A stretch of 64,000 bases of DNA, taken from positions 1 to 64,000 of the forward strand of contig NZ_JACHYE010000015.1 of the NCBI RefSeq assembly GCF_014192645.1, in the 5' to 3' direction. The translations under genes were made by a program, and so were the position numbers. Numbering within the stretch: position 1 is the stretch's first letter; each line of letters starts with the position of its first letter. The notes below the pieces were generated by a model. That model worked only from the letters and a program-made list of their open reading frames with translations, searched no databases and was not told where the DNA came from. Below are positions 12,903 through 20,789 of this stretch, in pieces. This DNA comes from Herbaspirillum sp. Sphag64 (GTDB lineage: Bacteria; Pseudomonadota; Gammaproteobacteria; Burkholderiales; Burkholderiaceae_D).

Positions 12903-13529
12903 CTACCGCTTGGCTCGGATACGTAGTGCAGCTGGCGGAAGTTGTGGTTCGGCGCGGGCCAGTTGTAACGCCCTTGTCAGCCACTCGAGATCGTCAAGCA
13001 TCACCTCCAGTTGCACATCGAGTATCGGATTCGTTGACCGACCTTGCGCATCAAATGCCGTCGTTACCAAAGGAATCAATGTTGATGTCCGCACGGGTAC
13101 TGCTTCGGCTTCGGTCATCACCTGGATCAGATGCTCCACTGCTCGGGCTGCTGCTGTGGGGCCAAGACTGTAACCCACAAAGGCAACTGGCTTGCGACGG
13201 AAGTTGAAGGAAAAAAAGACCGAATCGATAGCGTTTTTCAGTACCGCCGGGATGCTGCGATTGTATTCAGGGGTGATGATGAGGTAAGCGTCAGCTTGCC
13301 GGATCTTCTCGTTCCATTGTTTGACGATGGGCGTCGAGTAGGTCGGATTGCTGAAGTCGCCGACGCTGGCGATGGTTTCCTGGAAAAAAGGTAGCGGCCA
13401 GTCGCGCAAGTCGAGAACTTCGACATCAAATGCATCGTGCGATTGTGCAACCGGTAACAGCCAGCGGCAGACTGCTTCAGCGTTACGACCTTCGCGTGTG
13501 CTACCGACAATGATTTGTAGTTTGAACAT
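12903..13529 (-). CDS. NADPH-dependent FMN reductase (flavodoxin-like quinone/azo reductase)
   Basis: A 208-residue protein of the flavodoxin-like NAD(P)H reductase family. The N-terminal phosphate loop is GSTREGRNAE (9-18) and the flavin-stacking segment is TPEYNRSIPAVLKNAID, both family hallmarks. Members reduce quinones, azo compounds or free flavin and protect against oxidants. It is divergent from a MarR regulator that starts 79 bases away and that probably represses it in response to a redox or phenolic signal. I see no membrane or export signal. Confidence 0.9.
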   Translation of the reverse strand: MFKLQIIVGSTREGRNAEAVCRWLLPVAQSHDAFDVEVLDLRDWPLPFFQETIASVGDFSNPTYSTPIVKQWNEKIRQADAYLIITPEYNRSIPAVLKNAIDSVFFSFNFRRKPVAFVGYSLGPTAAARAVEHLIQVMTEAEAVPVRTSTLIPLVTTAFDAQGRSTNPILDVQLEVMLDDLEWLTRALQLARAEPQLPPAALRIRAKR

Positions 13530-13582
13530 GATTTTCCTTAACGTTGATGAGATGAAGTATCTTTGGTACGATCTTCATTTAT

Positions 13583-13606
13583 AAACATATTTATATAAAT
13601 ATATTT
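13583..13606. promoter_or_regulatory. Candidate MarR operator overlapping the regulator's start region
   Basis: A 24-base near-palindrome (22 of 24 positions symmetric; the central 16 bases, 13587-13602, are perfect) made almost wholly of A and T. It ends two bases before the ATG of the MarR gene and lies 53 bases from the FMN reductase start. This placement would let a MarR dimer block both genes. It also leaves no room for a Shine-Dalgarno sequence on the marR side. Confidence 0.65.
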
Positions 13607-13608
13607 AC

Positions 13609-14040
13609 ATGTCAAGCAAACCTGAACATCTCGGCTGGTTAGTCAAGCGTATCCAGCATCGGCATCATCGGCACCTGGACAAGAAATTGGGGGAGCTTGG
13701 GCTGAGTCTGGTGCAGTGGAATGCGCTCAGGGAAATTGATCGCAACCCGGGTTGCTCGCAACTTCAACTGGCCGAACTGACATTCAATTCGGCGCAGGCA
13801 TTCGGCACCTTGGTGACACGTCTGCTCAAGGCGGAGCTAGTCAAGTCTTACCCCGGCAGCGGCCGTAGCACCTTGCATGAACTGACTGCGAAGGGACGGG
13901 CACTGCTGGAAGAGGGGCAAAAAACCATGTTTGATGTGACCAATGCGTCATTCGGACTCCTCAGCGACGAGGAGCAGGAGCATCTCAAGGCGCTGTTGGA
14001 AAAGGTGCTCGCCCATCAACCACCGGAATCACTGCCATAA
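13609..14040 (+). CDS. MarR-family transcriptional regulator
   Basis: A 143-residue winged-helix regulator: dimerisation helices at both ends, recognition helix near residues 55-72 (LAELTFNSAQAFGTLVTRLL) and a wing with a conserved arginine (SGRSTLHELTAKG, 84-96). These proteins repress neighbours until a phenolic or oxidising ligand binds. The divergent FMN reductase is the obvious target. The ATG at 13609 comes straight after an AT-only palindrome, so there is no ribosome-binding site; the gene may be read from a leaderless or very short-leader mRNA. The next start codon would cut into the first helix. Confidence 0.88.
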   Translation: MSSKPEHLGWLVKRIQHRHHRHLDKKLGELGLSLVQWNALREIDRNPGCSQLQLAELTFNSAQAFGTLVTRLLKAELVKSYPGSGRSTLHELTAKGRALLEEGQKTMFDVTNASFGLLSDEEQEHLKALLEKVLAHQPPESLP

Positions 14041-14069: not shown

Positions 14070-15677
14070 TCAGGACACTGCCAGTGCCGGTGCTAGCCGT
14101 GCATGCTGGTGCCGTAACTCCAGCCGCCGCAGGAAATCCTCCAGTACGATCCGATAGAGCGCGTCACCAAGCACACTGTCTTCGATATCCTGATCAATGT
14201 TCGGGTTATCGTTGACCTCAATGACCACCGGACCACGGCTGGTCATCTTCATGTCCACGCCATACAAACCATCACCAATCAGATTGGCAGCCTGTACTGC
14301 ATGGCGTAGCAACTCTGGTGGGACGGCATCGAGCGGCATGGCGCGGCTCATGCCGAACTCGGCCTTGCCGCTGGCATCGCGCTTGGCGACCTGCCAGTGA
14401 CCCTTGGACATGAAATACTGACTGGCAAAGATCGGCCGCTGGTTCAGTACACCGATGCGCCAGTCGAACTCGGTGTACAGATATTCCTGCACCAGCATCA
14501 AGGAGGATTGCTTGAGCAGCTCCTGTGCCGTCGCATAAAACTCTTCCCGGTTTGCCGCCTTCGATACCCCGCGTGAGAACGCACCATCGGGTACCTTCAT
14601 CACCATTGGATAGCCAATCTCGGCTTCCAGCGCGGCGATGTTGTCCAGCGCATCTTCCTGCAGCACGTAGGTGCGCGGTGTCGGGATGTCGTTGAGCCGC
14701 AGCAGATCGGCCAGATAGATCTTGTTGGTACAGCGCAGTATCGAGACTGGATCATCGATGACGACCAGTCCTTCGCTCTCGGCCTTTTTGGCGAAGCGGT
14801 AGGTATGATGATTGATGGCTGTGGTTTCGCGGATGAACAGCGCATCGTATTCGGCGATGTGGTTGAAGTCCTTCTTCTCGATCAGCGAGACGTCAACTCC
14901 GAGCTCATGACCCACCGCAATGAACTTGTCGAGCGCACCAGGATTACTTGGTGGCAGCGCTTCTTCCGGATTCTGCAGGATAGCGATCTGATACCGGTGC
15001 TGACGACCGGCGACAGGGCGTGGTGCGGCGTGATGCCGGAAGCTGTCGAATGCCTGCGTCAGCTGCTGGGTTTGATGCGCGCATAGCGTGGCAACGTTTT
15101 GTACCTTCACTGCCTGAATCTTCCAGTCGTCGCGGTGCTCGAACTCGATGCGCATCAACGGCACCGGGAATTTCTCGAAAATCTGTCGCGCAAGTGCAGC
15201 CAGTGGCGTGTAGTCGGTGCTGCCAAAAAACACATCCATCGAGAACTCGACCGGCATCGGAACTGTATCCGTGGAAGACAGACTGCTGTTGAGCGCGGCA
15301 TCCAGATCGCTGATGTCCAGACTGTAGATGGCTTTGCGCGACAGATCGTTGACGGTCTTCACTGACGGATAGACATGTTGCTTGCGGGCTTCGGCCAGCA
15401 GCGAGCAATAGTAGCCAATCGACAGGTATTTGACACTGCGGCAGAGGTTGATAACGATGCTGCCAGGTTTGACATGGCGGGTGCCGGGACTGAGGTAGTC
15501 GGCCGCGCTGACCACTGTTTCGTTGGCGTGGGCACTCCAGTCCTTGCTGTTTTCGACGATGACCAATAGGTCTGACGGTTCGCCGGGCGTGTCTTCGTCA
15601 TTGCTTGGCAGTGGTAGCGGCCGCGACAGCGTCGTAGCGCCTGGCACCGGGGGAACGATTGTACTTGCGTTAGGCAT
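14070..15677 (-). CDS. RimK-like ATP-grasp ligase with N-terminal RLAN domain
   Basis: A 535-residue protein. Residues about 32-180 match the RimK-like ATP-grasp N-terminal (RLAN) domain (DLLVIVENSKDWSAHANETV, then CRSVKYLSIGYYCSLLAEAR). The ATP-grasp fold follows at about 300-515: a lysine in PMVMKVPDGAFSRGVSK, VQEYLYTEFDWRIGVL, and the metal-binding end GPVVIEVNDNPNID. Such ligases join an amino acid, often glutamate, to a carboxyl group of a peptide or protein. It is the last of three minus-strand genes with a GNAT/C39 fusion and a small ORF, an association reported for RimK-like amidoligases. The substrate is unknown. There is 123 bp before it and no strong Shine-Dalgarno sequence. Confidence 0.88.
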   Translation of the reverse strand: MPNASTIVPPVPGATTLSRPLPLPSNDEDTPGEPSDLLVIVENSKDWSAHANETVVSAADYLSPGTRHVKPGSIVINLCRSVKYLSIGYYCSLLAEARKQHVYPSVKTVNDLSRKAIYSLDISDLDAALNSSLSSTDTVPMPVEFSMDVFFGSTDYTPLAALARQIFEKFPVPLMRIEFEHRDDWKIQAVKVQNVATLCAHQTQQLTQAFDSFRHHAAPRPVAGRQHRYQIAILQNPEEALPPSNPGALDKFIAVGHELGVDVSLIEKKDFNHIAEYDALFIRETTAINHHTYRFAKKAESEGLVVIDDPVSILRCTNKIYLADLLRLNDIPTPRTYVLQEDALDNIAALEAEIGYPMVMKVPDGAFSRGVSKAANREEFYATAQELLKQSSLMLVQEYLYTEFDWRIGVLNQRPIFASQYFMSKGHWQVAKRDASGKAEFGMSRAMPLDAVPPELLRHAVQAANLIGDGLYGVDMKMTSRGPVVIEVNDNPNIDQDIEDSVLGDALYRIVLEDFLRRLELRHQHARLAPALAVS

Positions 15678-15800
15678 AGATGTCTTATCGTTGACTGATC
15701 AATGTCAGTACCGACCGGGTGGTGTCACTGACCTCAATGAGTCTAGGTGGTCAAAAATAAAAACGGCGTAAATTTATCGACTGCCGGCATTAAATTTTCA

Positions 15801-16898
15801 TCAGCGTTTAGCTTGCGGCGGATACAGGATCACCATCGCCTTGGTAGCGTCACGGCCATAGCGCGCCATGCGTTCAAAGTCCTTTTTCAGGATCGCCATG
15901 TTGATGCGTTCATCGCCACTGCGCTGGGGCGAGTTGTCAGGATCGTGGATATAAAAGAAGCGGTCATCACAGCCTGTCATGATGACCCAGTGCGGTGCGC
16001 GCTCGCGCGTGAGGCGATAAGTGGAAATCAGTACCAGCGGTATCCCGCCGTCATGGAAACAGCGCACCAGATCGCGGGTACCTGCCAGCTTGCGATGGAC
16101 CGGGATGCGCAACTGGTTGACCTGGCGCACGAAGTCATCGTGCACCAGTTGAATCACCTGGCGCTTTTCCGGACTGCGGACCGATTCCTGGAACAGCACA
16201 CCATTGCCGTTGACAAAAATCTCACACGGAAAATCGCGCTGCTGCGCTGCCAGCGCAAGACCATAAGGACTGCAGCCGCCATGTCCGGAGGTCATGAAGA
16301 TGGTGGTCGCTTCGCGCCAGAGTTGCAGTTCCAGCGTACGGTCCAGGCGCAGTGCCGGATCAAAGGCCTTCATTGCCATCATCAGGCAGGCCGGGCCACA
16401 GGTGAAGCCGAGCGTTTGCTGATAATAGGGCGCGCGTGCCAGTGCTGTGCGCAGGTGATGGGTCAGCGACTTTTCCAGCCGAAAGCCATCCATGCCGTCG
16501 TCGTAGTAGGCTGGATAATCGCCAAAGATGCGATAGCCGCGGCTTTGGAACAGTCGCAGCGAGGCCTGGTTATCCTTGCGGATTTCCAGTCGCATGCTGA
16601 CACAGTTATGCATCAGCGCAGTCTGCTCGGCGGCGAGCAGCAGACCAGCTGCGACGCCATGACCAAGGTGATCGGGATGGGTGGCAATCGAATAGATTCG
16701 CGCCAGTGAGAGATTCTTGCGGAACAGCAGCGTGACATATCCGCGCAGTTGTCCATCGTGGTCATCGAGCAGGGTTGCCGCATGACCTCGTGCGAGTAGG
16801 TGGCGAAAGCTGCGTGCACTGATGCGGTCACCGCTGAAGCTGCGGTTTTCTATCTCCAGTAGGGCGGCAATGTCGCCAGCCACGGCAGCACGGATCAT
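15801..16898 (-). CDS. GNAT acetyltransferase fused to C39-like cysteine peptidase
   Basis: A 365-residue two-domain protein. Residues 1-145 are a RimI-like GNAT domain, with the acetyl-CoA loop near HPDHLGHGVAAG (74-85). Residues about 155-360 are a papain-like C39-type domain: Q161 and C167 in QTLGFTCGPACL, H303 in APHWVIMTG and D319 in YIHDPD form a complete likely triad. C39 domains usually remove leader peptides; here there is no transporter, so it probably acts on a cytosolic peptide or amide. With the RLAN ATP-grasp ligase downstream and a 69-residue ORF just upstream, it could acetylate and trim a ligated peptide. That joint role is inference. Confidence 0.88.
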   Translation of the reverse strand: MIRAAVAGDIAALLEIENRSFSGDRISARSFRHLLARGHAATLLDDHDGQLRGYVTLLFRKNLSLARIYSIATHPDHLGHGVAAGLLLAAEQTALMHNCVSMRLEIRKDNQASLRLFQSRGYRIFGDYPAYYDDGMDGFRLEKSLTHHLRTALARAPYYQQTLGFTCGPACLMMAMKAFDPALRLDRTLELQLWREATTIFMTSGHGGCSPYGLALAAQQRDFPCEIFVNGNGVLFQESVRSPEKRQVIQLVHDDFVRQVNQLRIPVHRKLAGTRDLVRCFHDGGIPLVLISTYRLTRERAPHWVIMTGCDDRFFYIHDPDNSPQRSGDERINMAILKKDFERMARYGRDATKAMVILYPPQAKR

Positions 16899-16910
16899 GA
16901 TCTTGCTGAC

Positions 16911-17120
16911 TCACCCATGGTCGCCGCGACTCGGGAACAGGCATTGGTAGAGCTGCACGAAGCGAGCGCGCACATCGGGATGGTCGCAGTGCCAACCACT
17001 CAGACTGGACAATGCTTCGCGCTGGTGATCTGCGCTTCTACCGATGCGTCGTCCATCGGTATACTGCGTACCCAGACGCTCGTCGCTCCCGGTATTGACC
17101 AGGTTTCCGTAGAGTCCCAT
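16911..17120 (-). CDS. Small ORF heading the GNAT-C39 / ATP-grasp gene set
   Basis: An open frame of 69 codons that ends 12 bases before the GNAT-C39 start. Upstream of its ATG (17120) is AAGGCGGG, a fair ribosome site. Codons in the second half end mostly in G or C, like real genes here. The product has a disordered-looking polar first half and a compact C-terminal half with W43, H44, C45, H47 and C60 (WHCDHPDVRARF then LYQCLFPS). I do not recognise it. It could be a substrate peptide for the ligase and peptidase, a small accessory protein, or a chance frame; an overlapping 102-codon frame on the other strand weakens the case. Confidence 0.45.
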   Translation of the reverse strand: MGLYGNLVNTGSDERLGTQYTDGRRIGRSADHQREALSSLSGWHCDHPDVRARFVQLYQCLFPSRGDHG

Positions 17121-17435: not shown

Positions 17436-17897
17436 ATGAATTTGATTGCCACATTGTGCCCGGTGGAGGACATCCTGCTGGGTCGTGACATCGCCAACAA
17501 GAGCCGCTTGTTCGACGACGTTGCACGGCATCTTCAGGAGCGTCATGGCTTGCCGTCGGCAGCACTGATCGACAGTCTCAATGCACGTGAGGCATTGGGC
17601 TCGACCGCTGTTGGCCATGGTCTGGCGATTCCGCATGCCCGCATCGCGGGTTTGCAGAAGGTGGTTGCGGTCTTCGTGCGGCCCCGTACACCGATTGCAT
17701 TTGACGCGCCGGACCGCAAGCCGGTGTCGGATATATTGGTGTTGCTGGTGCCAGAACAGGCACAGCAGGAGCACCTCCAGATTCTGGCCAGCATCGCGCA
17801 GATGTTTTCTGACCGGCCCTTGCGTGAGCAACTGCGCGCAGCCACCAACGCTGCCGAAGTCAGTCGCCTTTTCAGCCAGTGGCAGGCCCCCGGCTAG
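17436..17897 (+). CDS. PTS EIIA domain protein, nitrogen-PTS type (PtsN-like)
   Basis: A 153-residue single EIIA domain of the fructose/Ntr class. The phosphorylated histidine is H67 in GHGLAIPHARI, the conserved site. PtsN proteins do not move sugar; they bind and regulate K+ transporters, kinases and stress factors according to PTS phosphorylation. This copy stands alone, without rpoN, hpf or rapZ nearby, and 126 bp before an MgtA-type Mg2+ ATPase, so it may be a paralogue devoted to cation transport. The function in that role is inference. Confidence 0.87.
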   Translation: MNLIATLCPVEDILLGRDIANKSRLFDDVARHLQERHGLPSAALIDSLNAREALGSTAVGHGLAIPHARIAGLQKVVAVFVRPRTPIAFDAPDRKPVSDILVLLVPEQAQQEHLQILASIAQMFSDRPLREQLRAATNAAEVSRLFSQWQAPG

Positions 17898-17909
17898 TGT
17901 TACCCGCAC

Positions 17910-17928
17910 GCGTGTCTGCCGGACACGC
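17910..17928. other. Hairpin between the EIIA-Ntr and Mg2+ ATPase genes
   Basis: A perfect 7-bp stem (GCGTGTC / GACACGC) with a 5-base loop, 12 bases past the EIIA stop. No T-run follows. It could be an RNA processing site, a weak attenuator, or a leader element for the Mg2+ ATPase. It resembles no Mg2+ riboswitch I know. Confidence 0.4.
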
Positions 17929-18023
17929 AGATGCCAAACCAGTGGGACTGTCGCTGTGCTGGTTTCCCCCCTCCGATTCAACCTTTATCGAGTATCGATT
18001 CGATTCCAGAGACGGCGATCAAG

Positions 18024-20789
18024 ATGCCAAATTTCAACAATCTGTTTAGTAATTTCATTCGCTCGCGTGGGATGGCCGACAAGTTTCGACGTTTGAGCAT
18101 CAGCGATGTGCTCTCACGCAACGGTATCAGCAAAGACGTGCCCTTGGTAGCGACCATTTCCTTGATGGATGCGGCCAAGAACGACCCGGTCACGCTGTTG
18201 CAGGAACTGCAGTCGCATGAAGACGGACTGACCGATGCGCAGGCCGCGGGTACCCGCGAGTCGGTTGGCCTGAATGAAATTGAAAGCGAAAAGCCAAGAC
18301 CATGGTGGCAGCATCTGTGGCAGTGTTATCGCAACCCTTTCAATTTGCTGCTGACGCTGCTGGCCACGATCTCTTACATCACCGACGATGCCAAGGGCGC
18401 GTTGGTGATCGGTTCGATGGTGGCGTTGTCGACGCTGATCCGCTTCTATGAGGAAGCACGTTCGAACCGGGCGGCCGATAAGCTCAAGGAAATGGTCAGC
18501 AATAAGGCCACGGTATTGCGTCGATCACCGGCCGATCCTTTGCTGCAGCAAACCAGTGCCTATTTTGGTATTCCGCCGTTGCCGGCCACGCCCGAGCGGA
18601 TCGAGTTGCCAATCAAGTTGCTGGTGCCCGGTGATGTGATCACCTTGTCGGCCGGTGACATGATTCCGGCTGACGTACGACTGTTGGTGGCCAAGGATCT
18701 GTTCGTCAGCCAGGCCGCGATGACCGGTGAATCACTGCCCGTCGAGAAATTTGCCGCCTTGCAGGATGCAGCACTGGCGGCCAACCCGCTGGAGCTGGAT
18801 AACATCTGCTTCATGGGGACCAACGTGGTCAGTGGATCGGCACGGGCGGTCGTGGTCAATACCGGTAACCGGACCCTGTTTGGGGTATTGGCGCGCAGCG
18901 CGACAGCAGTTCAACGGCGCCTGACCTCGTTCCAGATCGGCATCAACAAAGTCAGCTGGTTGCTGGTGCGCTTCATGCTGGTGATGACACCGATCGTGCT
19001 GCTGCTCAATGGCTTTACCAAGGGTGACTGGTTTGATGCAACCTTGTTTGCGATCTCGATTGCGATTGGTCTGACACCGGAAATGCTGCCCATGATTGTC
19101 ACCGCTACTCTGGCCAAGGGGGCGGTGTATCTGTCGCGCAAGAAGGTGATCGTCAAGCGGCTCGATGCGATTCAGAATTTTGGCGCCATGGATGTGCTCT
19201 GTACCGACAAGACCGGTACCCTGACGCAGGACAAGATCTATCTGGAGCGCCATACCGATGTGTTGGGCCATGCCTCCGATGAAGTTTTGCAACATGCCTA
19301 TCTCAACAGCTTCTATCAAACCGGCCTGAAGAATCTGCTGGATGTAGCCGTGCTTGAGCATGCCGAGTTGCAGACCGAACTGAAGCTGGCGACTAATTTC
19401 AGCAAGGTTGATGAAATTCCGTTCGATTTCCAGCGCCGTCGTATGTCGGTGGTGGTGGCGGAAAACAATCATAGCCATCGCCTGATCTGCAAGGGGGCGC
19501 TGGAAGAGGTGATTGCGGTGTGTACCCGGGTGCGCATTGGTCATGAAGACTGGCCGCTGGAGAATGAGCATCTGATGCGAATCCGTGAAGTCACGGCAGC
19601 GCTCAACAACGATGGTTTGCGCGTGGTCGCCGTGGCCGCCCGCGAGACGCCGCTGGAGCAGCAGGTCTATGGTGTAGCCGACGAGAGTGATTTGACGCTC
19701 ATTGGTTACATTGCCTTCCTCGACCCGCCGAAGCAATCGACCGCACCAGCCTTGCAGGCACTGCGTGAACATGGGGTGACCGTCAAGGTGCTGACCGGTG
19801 ACAACGGTCTGGTCACGACCAAGGTCTGCCGGGAAGTCGGTTTGCCGATGGATGGTGGTGTGGTGCTGGGATCAGATATTGAAAGTATTAGCGACGAAGA
19901 GCTCGGGCGGCTGGTCGAGTCGGCCCATGTATTTGCCAAACTCACGCCGCAACACAAGGAGCGCGTTGTCAGTGCGCTGCGCGCCAACGGGCACGTGGTC
20001 GGTTTCCTTGGTGACGGCATCAATGATGCGGCAGCCTTGCGCGCTGCCGATATTGGTATCTCAGTCGATACGGCGGTTGATATCGCCAAGGAAGCGGCTG
20101 ACCTGATCCTGCTGGAAAAGAGTTTGATGGTGCTGGAGCAGGGTGTGCTGGAAGGCCGTCGGACCTCGGCCAACATGGTCAAGTACGTCAAGATGAATGC
20201 CAGTTCCAACTTTGGCAACGTGTTTTCGGTACTGGTGGCGAGCGTCTTCCTGCCCTTCCTGCCGATGCTGCCGCTGCAGTTGCTGGTGCAGAATCTGCTC
20301 TACGATTTCTCGCAGGTGGCGATTCCGTTTGATCATGTGGATGCCGAGCAACTGGTCGCGCCGCAACGCTGGAACCCGGGCGATATTGGCCGCTTCATGG
20401 TGTTCTTTGGTCCGATCAGCTCCATCTTTGACATCGCTACCTTTGCGCTGATGTGGTACGTCTTCAAGGCCAATACGGTTGAGACACAGTCGCTGTTCCA
20501 GTCGGGCTGGTTTGTCGAGGGCTTGCTGTCGCAGACGCTGATTGTGCACATGATCCGTACCCGCAAGATTCCCTTCATCCAGAGTCGCGCAGCATGGCCG
20601 CTGTTGCTGGGCACGGCGATCATTGTGGCGGTGGGGATTATTCTGCCGATGAGTCCGATTGCTGATTATTTCAAGATGACACCGTTGCCGCTGGCGTACT
20701 TCCCGTGGCTGGTGGTGGTATTACTGGCCTATGTTGGTCTGACACAGGCGATGAAGAGTTTCTACAGCAAACGCTACGGCTGGCAGTAA
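18024..20789 (+). CDS. mgtA: Magnesium-transporting P-type ATPase (MgtA/MgtB)
   Basis: A 921-residue P3B-type ATPase that imports Mg2+ across the inner membrane. Visible are the N-terminal cation-ATPase region, the actuator TGES motif (MTGESLPVEK), the phosphorylation site CTDKTGTLTQD, the nucleotide domain (CKGALEEV), the hinge GDGINDAAALRAADIG, and about ten membrane helices including IGLTPEMLPMIVT. The frame is open from 17931, but starting at the ATG at 18024 (MPNFNNLFSN) gives the usual length of about 900-920. It follows a PtsN-like gene and may be in one transcript with it. Expression in this family usually rises when Mg2+ is low; no known Mg2+ sensor leader is visible. Confidence 0.93.
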   Translation: MPNFNNLFSNFIRSRGMADKFRRLSISDVLSRNGISKDVPLVATISLMDAAKNDPVTLLQELQSHEDGLTDAQAAGTRESVGLNEIESEKPRPWWQHLWQCYRNPFNLLLTLLATISYITDDAKGALVIGSMVALSTLIRFYEEARSNRAADKLKEMVSNKATVLRRSPADPLLQQTSAYFGIPPLPATPERIELPIKLLVPGDVITLSAGDMIPADVRLLVAKDLFVSQAAMTGESLPVEKFAALQDAALAANPLELDNICFMGTNVVSGSARAVVVNTGNRTLFGVLARSATAVQRRLTSFQIGINKVSWLLVRFMLVMTPIVLLLNGFTKGDWFDATLFAISIAIGLTPEMLPMIVTATLAKGAVYLSRKKVIVKRLDAIQNFGAMDVLCTDKTGTLTQDKIYLERHTDVLGHASDEVLQHAYLNSFYQTGLKNLLDVAVLEHAELQTELKLATNFSKVDEIPFDFQRRRMSVVVAENNHSHRLICKGALEEVIAVCTRVRIGHEDWPLENEHLMRIREVTAALNNDGLRVVAVAARETPLEQQVYGVADESDLTLIGYIAFLDPPKQSTAPALQALREHGVTVKVLTGDNGLVTTKVCREVGLPMDGGVVLGSDIESISDEELGRLVESAHVFAKLTPQHKERVVSALRANGHVVGFLGDGINDAAALRAADIGISVDTAVDIAKEAADLILLEKSLMVLEQGVLEGRRTSANMVKYVKMNASSNFGNVFSVLVASVFLPFLPMLPLQLLVQNLLYDFSQVAIPFDHVDAEQLVAPQRWNPGDIGRFMVFFGPISSIFDIATFALMWYVFKANTVETQSLFQSGWFVEGLLSQTLIVHMIRTRKIPFIQSRAAWPLLLGTAIIVAVGIILPMSPIADYFKMTPLPLAYFPWLVVVLLAYVGLTQAMKSFYSKRYGWQ

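Follow-up and report, generated by a model that had tools for sequence, protein, structure and literature searches.

What would a bacterium make with an ATP-grasp ligase encoded next to an acetyltransferase that carries its own peptidase domain? The question is raised by a stretch of DNA from Herbaspirillum sp. Sphag64 (assembly GCF_014192645.1, contig NZ_JACHYE010000015.1, positions 1 to 64,000; this whole stretch of 64,000 nucleotides is referred to as the window), in which two minus-strand genes lie side by side. One encodes a protein with an RLAN domain and a RimK-type ATP-grasp domain (RLAN-RimK), the other a GNAT domain fused to a papain-like, C39-like DUF3335 domain (GNAT-DUF3335). A preliminary description of this DNA had joined to them a 69-residue open reading frame (ORF) as the third gene of a possible peptide-making system. 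Our analysis leads to a set of two genes, and we consider it an evenly balanced proposition that this set serves the synthesis and turnover of a small peptide or amide with an acyl cap.

Two genes that are inherited together

Both proteins proved to be what the preliminary description had recognised. Their domains score above the Pfam cut-offs (Table 1), and the peptidase residues C167, H303 and D319, described as intact, do not vary across 22 aligned sequences. Six ATP-grasp residues of the ligase (K361, E398, R407, D475, E487 and N489) are likewise without variation in 26 aligned sequences. They align with the RimK active site in an alignment to RimK structures and, in agreement with it, we take them to be the catalytic ones. 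A promoter-like match lies partly in the gap between the two genes and extends into the start of the ligase gene, at a frequency expected by chance (three such matches found in the region vs 2.8 expected).

The distribution of the two proteins was examined in 349 genomes drawn from across the phylum (Pseudomonadota, to judge by named relatives), the Herbaspirillum genome counted in; only part of the candidate places was scored in some genomes, so that the counts from the DUF3335, ngg and DUF2817 genome scans are lower bounds. RLAN was present in 62 of the 349 genomes and DUF3335 in at least 52, with both in 51 (Fisher p 3.8e-49, a value that is only a guide because the genomes are related). 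Fourteen control genomes, including E. coli, gave no RLAN. The two lay no more than 3 kb apart in 49 of these 51 genomes, in tandem in 32, divergently in 16 and convergently in one. Within the family to which the Herbaspirillum genome belongs, RLAN was found in 24 of 116 genomes and DUF3335 in four, all of them among the 24; the four other same-genus genomes of this family draw gave no RLAN. With its genes adjacent and co-inherited, the locus belongs to the RLAN-RimK/GNAT-DUF3335 class, a set present in many Pseudomonas species. This co-occurrence and linkage strongly support the earlier proposal that ligase, acetyltransferase and peptidase form one functional unit. The accompanying expectation, that the ligase and fusion genes should not be found apart in relatives, held with few exceptions: two unlinked genomes (G121 and G307), a single DUF3335 genome without RLAN (G123) and a few RLAN copies without GNAT, which are discussed below.

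Table 1. Features of the Herbaspirillum locus and its surroundings (positions in the window unless another locus is named)
Feature	Position	Strand	Remarks
RLAN + RimK-type ATP-grasp ligase gene	14070..15677	-	535 aa
RLAN domain (PF14401)	15054..15503	-	Pfam 150.8 bits, cut-off 25
RimK-type ATP-grasp domain (PF08443)	14190..14726	-	Pfam 33.5 bits, cut-off 21
Intergenic gap, ligase gene to fusion gene	15678..15800	-	123 nt, 42% G+C
GNAT + DUF3335 (papain-like, C39-like) fusion gene	15801..16898	-	365 aa
GNAT domain (PF00583)	16449..16898	-	50 bits, cut-off 20.7; peptide N-alpha-acetyltransferase fold (RimI/Ard1/Naa10)
DUF3335 domain (PF11814)	15825..16430	-	Pfam 269.8 bits, cut-off 25
DUF3335 C167, H303, D319 codons	16398-16400, 15990-15992, 15942-15944	-	
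69-residue ORF	16911..17120	-	judged a chance reading frame, outside the system
FMN reductase and MarR-type regulator genes	12903-14040		divergently transcribed, beside the ligase gene
PtsN-like phosphotransferase system (PTS) IIA gene and Mg-translocating P-type ATPase gene	17436-20789	+	33 nt between them; ATPase TIGR01524, 1339.9 bits
CorA-family transporter gene, examples	L043 7493-8425; L031 7623-8603		downstream of RLAN-RimK

GNAT as the constant partner

It is GNAT, and not the peptidase, that is the steady partner of RLAN-RimK, with DUF3335 as an accessory. The comparison drew on a related-locus set (the best 80 of 338 relatives) and on profiles, seeded from the locus's own domains and neighbour proteins, that were run over 145 fetched loci. 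In all 11 RLAN genomes without DUF3335, the neighbour of RLAN-RimK is a GNAT that stands alone and belongs to the subfamily of the fused one. Seventeen RLAN loci in which the fusion was missing or doubtful, a selected set, were also searched with tblastn (E 1e-3): 15 of them hold GNAT and no piece of DUF3335, a pattern that points to GNAT plus RLAN-RimK as the core, and a DUF3335 remnant was found in another (L040). At L119 (5220-6693), RLAN-RimK is broken over several frames with a full GNAT-DUF3335 beside it, through either decay or an assembly error.

A maximum-likelihood tree of RLAN-RimK (87 rows, taking 10 of the Pseudomonas loci, without L110, L119 and loci lacking RLAN and RimK in one frame) comprises 42 rows with the fusion, 19 with GNAT alone, two with both, 20 of a further kind (type B, described below) and four with none. 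One row (L030) was labelled as a fusion by hand, its GNAT and DUF3335 lying in two overlapping frames, and another, scored as lacking GNAT (L034), has a contig end nearby. The fusion label needs 14 changes on this tree, 12 of them forced; their reading as gains or losses depends on where the tree is rooted, here at the midpoint.

A clade with a second ligase

Type B forms one clade on the same tree (support 100/92). In its 20 loci, from the family sample, the genes for a C39_2-type peptidase, RLAN-RimK and a GCS2 ligase share one direction, i.e. a GCS2 ligase takes the place of GNAT beside the same class of RLAN ligase. An FGase-family (deformylase-like) protein is found in 18 of the 20; it is missing in L131 and in L130, where a contig end cuts the locus, and lies 2.5 kb off in L129. 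Where the match is full length, type B RLAN-RimK proteins are 35-41% identical to the Herbaspirillum ligase, and profile comparison aligned their peptidase with DUF3335 over 154 columns, the three catalytic residues included (E 2.5e-6, probability 89). Only the initial 55-70 of 150 RLAN positions are recognised in the ligases of L131, L132 and L133. A Legionella adelaidensis record carries, annotated in a row, a RimK family protein, a glutamate-cysteine ligase family protein and an N-formylglutamate amidohydrolase; no C39-type gene was found in this 9-kb record.

Relationship to RimK, RimI and Ngg

By sequence, the nearest relatives are RimK for the ATP-grasp domain and RimI for GNAT, which also resembles RimI, Ard1 and Naa10 by fold (in the fold comparison of the fusion protein the listed matches were all to the GNAT domain, and none was informative for DUF3335). 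Neither protein reaches the family cut-offs: the ligase scores 84.1 vs 143.4 for TIGR00768 and 36.6 vs 331 for PRK10446, and GNAT 62.3 vs 86.4 for the RimI family TIGR01575, for which a separate gene elsewhere in the Herbaspirillum genome obtains 117.6 bits. The peptidase, too, stays below the cut-off of the bacteriocin-exporter C39 family (PF03412, 20.5 vs 22 bits) and comes with no transporter domain.

The nearest known chemistry was met in genome G121. Its gene order at one site is a MarR-type gene, asnO, ngg, small frames, an M42 peptidase gene, an unassigned 249-aa frame, GNAT-DUF3335 and DUF2817. The GNAT-DUF3335 frame, whose product is 44% identical to the Herbaspirillum protein over the whole length, starts 1.7 kb past the M42 gene of a complete operon for the osmolyte N-acetylglutaminylglutamine amide (NAGGN). 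The RLAN-RimK of this genome lies with a lone GNAT 2.1 Mb from that site. Ngg is a single chain that combines a GNAT with a RimK-type ATP-grasp domain and is reported to make N-acetylglutaminylglutamine by carrying out both the N-acetylation and the formation of the peptide bond (PMC8070244).

In Herbaspirillum, the Ngg family TIGR03103 was absent from the matches listed for either protein (for the ligase the best 25 of 40, to about E 0.007), and no AsnO-type amidotransferase occurred among eight scanned proteins around the locus. Elsewhere in the genome, where three of nine candidates were scored, the best TIGR03103 score was 211 bits vs a cut-off of 569. In L207 a gene resembling asparagine synthetase lies downstream of RLAN-RimK; it was discarded, with a score of 361.6 vs the NAGGN amidotransferase cut-off of 570.1; it was not seen in the sister loci L206 and L208.

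A possible pathway and its alternatives

If the locus does make an acyl-capped product, GNAT would place an acyl group on the alpha-amine of its substrate, an amino acid or a short peptide; the ATP-grasp domain of RLAN-RimK would then activate a carboxylate with ATP and join an amine to it, RLAN perhaps selecting the substrate for the ligase; and the DUF3335 domain fused to GNAT would hydrolyse an amide bond in the product, so trimming or recycling it. This working mode can be likened to that of Ngg. We infer these reactions, their order, the substrates and any role in stress from what was observed of the domains and residues, the co-inheritance and adjacency, the GNAT partnership and the one NAGGN link. 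By analogy, metabolism resembling that of NAGGN appears the best reading of the locus, rather than ribosome modification or a ribosomally synthesised and post-translationally modified peptide (RiPP). More tentatively, RLAN ligases may mark a widespread, unrecognised class of small peptides with acyl caps, with a single conserved ligase at its base and exchangeable front ends (GNAT in most lineages, GCS2 plus a deformylase-like protein in another clade), often a papain-like hydrolase and, in places, wiring to NAGGN.

Several observations weigh against such a pathway. An ngg or M42 gene appeared at the G121 site only, among 149 loci searched; RLAN showed no genome-wide association with ngg (seven shared of at least 32 ngg genomes over the cut-off, p=0.48); and direct comparison of the Herbaspirillum proteins with Ngg was not significant (E 0.23 and 0.066). 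Being confined to one genome, with no other locus and no association, the NAGGN link is a lead for the chemistry and not proof. Some RLAN copies are without GNAT (L047, L128, L197 and L236, a Pseudomonas aeruginosa plasmid segment), and within 9 kb L236 holds no GNAT or DUF3335 of the GNAT-DUF3335 kind. In the GNAT alignment, Herbaspirillum, three Massilia-type rows and L041 have Phe where most rows have Tyr, a position that presumably corresponds to the general acid of RimI. Sigma-factor motifs, searched by consensus in 78 divergent intergenic regions (61 from Pseudomonas), were not above shuffles. Finally, the likeness of GNAT to protein N-terminal acetyltransferases is equally compatible with a protein substrate.

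Such a substrate would fit a tagging system, comparable to a RimK/RimI pair that brings its own eraser: a protein would receive amino acids from RLAN-RimK and an N-terminal acetyl group from GNAT, and DUF3335 would take the tag off again. The RimI, Ard1 and Naa10 fold of GNAT and an ATP-grasp domain closest to RimK are what one would look for in it, and deconjugating peptidases are among the papain-like folds, as the available part of PMC10318531 has it. We nevertheless think tagging unlikely: ligase and GNAT fall below the RimK and RimI cut-offs, a separate RimI is encoded elsewhere in the genome, no likely target stands among the recurrent neighbours (only part of them identified by profile), and type B replaces GNAT with GCS2, a small-molecule ligase. 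Even less probable, in our judgement, is a degradation module, with GNAT and DUF3335 detoxifying or recycling acylated or toxic peptides and RLAN-RimK conjugating them. Genome G311 (L215, 2017-13397) has two DUF3335 proteins around a peptide-type solute-binding protein, an oligopeptide-type ATP-binding cassette (ABC) ATPase and an AstE/AspA-type deacylase, neighbours that would suit a hydrolase acting on acylated peptides, and DUF2817 as a neighbour (see below) agrees with this. However, these two G311 proteins are divergent, one having a sub-threshold GNAT match and the other none, and stand away from the RLAN-linked pair of the genome; moreover, the member that the systems share is an ATP-consuming ligase, which points to synthesis.

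That the 69-residue ORF is the precursor of a RiPP system is highly improbable, even though this ORF, proposed before as third gene and as peptide substrate, runs in the direction of the GNAT gene and stops 12 nt before it. Searched with tblastn in 104 relative loci, it gave a best E of 0.002 (one Pseudomonas site) and otherwise E 0.08 and up; 128 further loci returned, at E 0.1, only the ORF itself (own-genome locus L246) and one match of E 0.084, and four same-genus loci no match. Its codon log-likelihood is near zero, 0.02 per codon vs 0.14-0.32 in seven neighbouring genes that served as comparison and also as training set. Counting real genes, the six frames of the surrounding 11 kb contain 45 ORFs that are 69 aa or longer. 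For lack of a homologue in relatives and of a coding signal, we rejected it as gene or precursor, and neither earlier proposal for it is supported; it is probably not a gene. It was also the sole candidate for the conserved precursor gene of a RiPP or graspetide system.

Genomic neighbourhood

Directly downstream of RLAN-RimK, on the same strand and with a gap of less than 100 nt, a CorA-family gene was found in 41 of 62 Pseudomonas loci (duplicates counted in), and one is present in the Massilia loci L031, L032 and L036 too. DUF2817 lies no more than 3 kb from RLAN in at least 14 sample genomes (13 of family f35 and one of f36), a count made on 45 genomes with strong matches (75 had any match, 63 one over the cut-off), and adjoins the system also in L050, L070 and L088. 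On the plasmid segment L236, RLAN-RimK is near pagP, a pyridoxal phosphate (PLP) aminotransferase-fold gene, ggt and amino-acid ABC genes. In Oxalobacteraceae a small protein of ~100 aa stands beside the system (L030, L031, L032, L037, L038, L114 and L119), without a match in Pfam or NCBIfam for the L038 protein, the one tested, and some loci add a ParA/MinD-like ATPase; neither occurs in the window.

On the two sides of the Herbaspirillum pair are the FMN reductase and regulator genes and the PtsN-like and ATPase genes of Table 1. The FMN reductase query gave nothing in four same-genus genomes, in a search run without a positive control. The ATPase has an orthologue in all four same-genus genomes, none with RLAN; we therefore treat this neighbour, and a magnesium link through it, as incidental. 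No PtsN-like match was seen around the orthologue (12 kb in each genome). Matches were obtained to 16 phage records; none covers more than 80% of the query, and in the ten listed they fall only outside RLAN.

Significance and comparison with known systems

In the text available from its sources, a literature search returned no experimental study of the RLAN-RimK and GNAT-DUF3335 pair and no product. A text search of the available parts of two water-stress papers (PMC12442406 and PMC4287175) did not find the word 'RimK'. A 'RimK family alpha-L-glutamate ligase' (EAR30706) takes third place among the proteins enriched in Pseudoalteromonas tunicata biofilms (PMC12153261); it is matched by name only, the same product name being borne by an RLAN-RimK protein of L236. 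In what is available of PMC5131308, a Myxococcus RimK-family gene is named in mutation tables only.

The constancy of GNAT, the peptidase's being absent repeatedly, the existence of a type B clade and the link to a NAGGN operon, all seen in the present analysis, may be new, a modest novelty because such systems were predicted earlier. Iyer et al. (Mol Biosyst 5:1636, 2009) reportedly predicted peptide systems of RLAN-RimK, GNAT and papain-like proteins. Our results define a core (GNAT and RLAN-RimK), an optional part (DUF3335), a substitute for GNAT and the nearest known chemistry (NAGGN), and this refined anatomy makes the question of the product testable. Since the set is found in many Pseudomonas species, identifying the product would add a small metabolite to the known repertoire of well-studied bacteria.

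With those predicted systems the Herbaspirillum locus shares all its domains, i.e. RLAN, RimK-type ATP-grasp, GNAT and papain-like DUF3335. RimK (the S6 ligase) and RimI (the S18 acetyltransferase) are the closest ATP-grasp and GNAT relatives of the pair, which differs from them in staying under the family cut-offs, in adding RLAN and DUF3335, and in having a RimI encoded separately. Fusions of DUF3335 with GNAT domains, which might be peptide ligases or acetylate, are frequent according to PMC10318531 (JBC 2023), which cites Iyer et al. on this point. For operons of R2K ATP-grasp and GNAT, peptide ligation followed by GNAT capping has been proposed in the available part of PMC4431377; the Herbaspirillum ATP-grasp is of another clade, and that part mentions no DUF3335 for the R2K operons. 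From the Ngg/AsnO/M42 peptidase system (TIGR03103/03104/03106) the Herbaspirillum set is set apart by its separate genes, by RLAN and DUF3335 and by having no AsnO adjoining, and it resembles that system in combining GNAT, a RimK-type ATP-grasp and a peptidase, the NAGGN product being, in the available account, an N-acetylated dipeptide.

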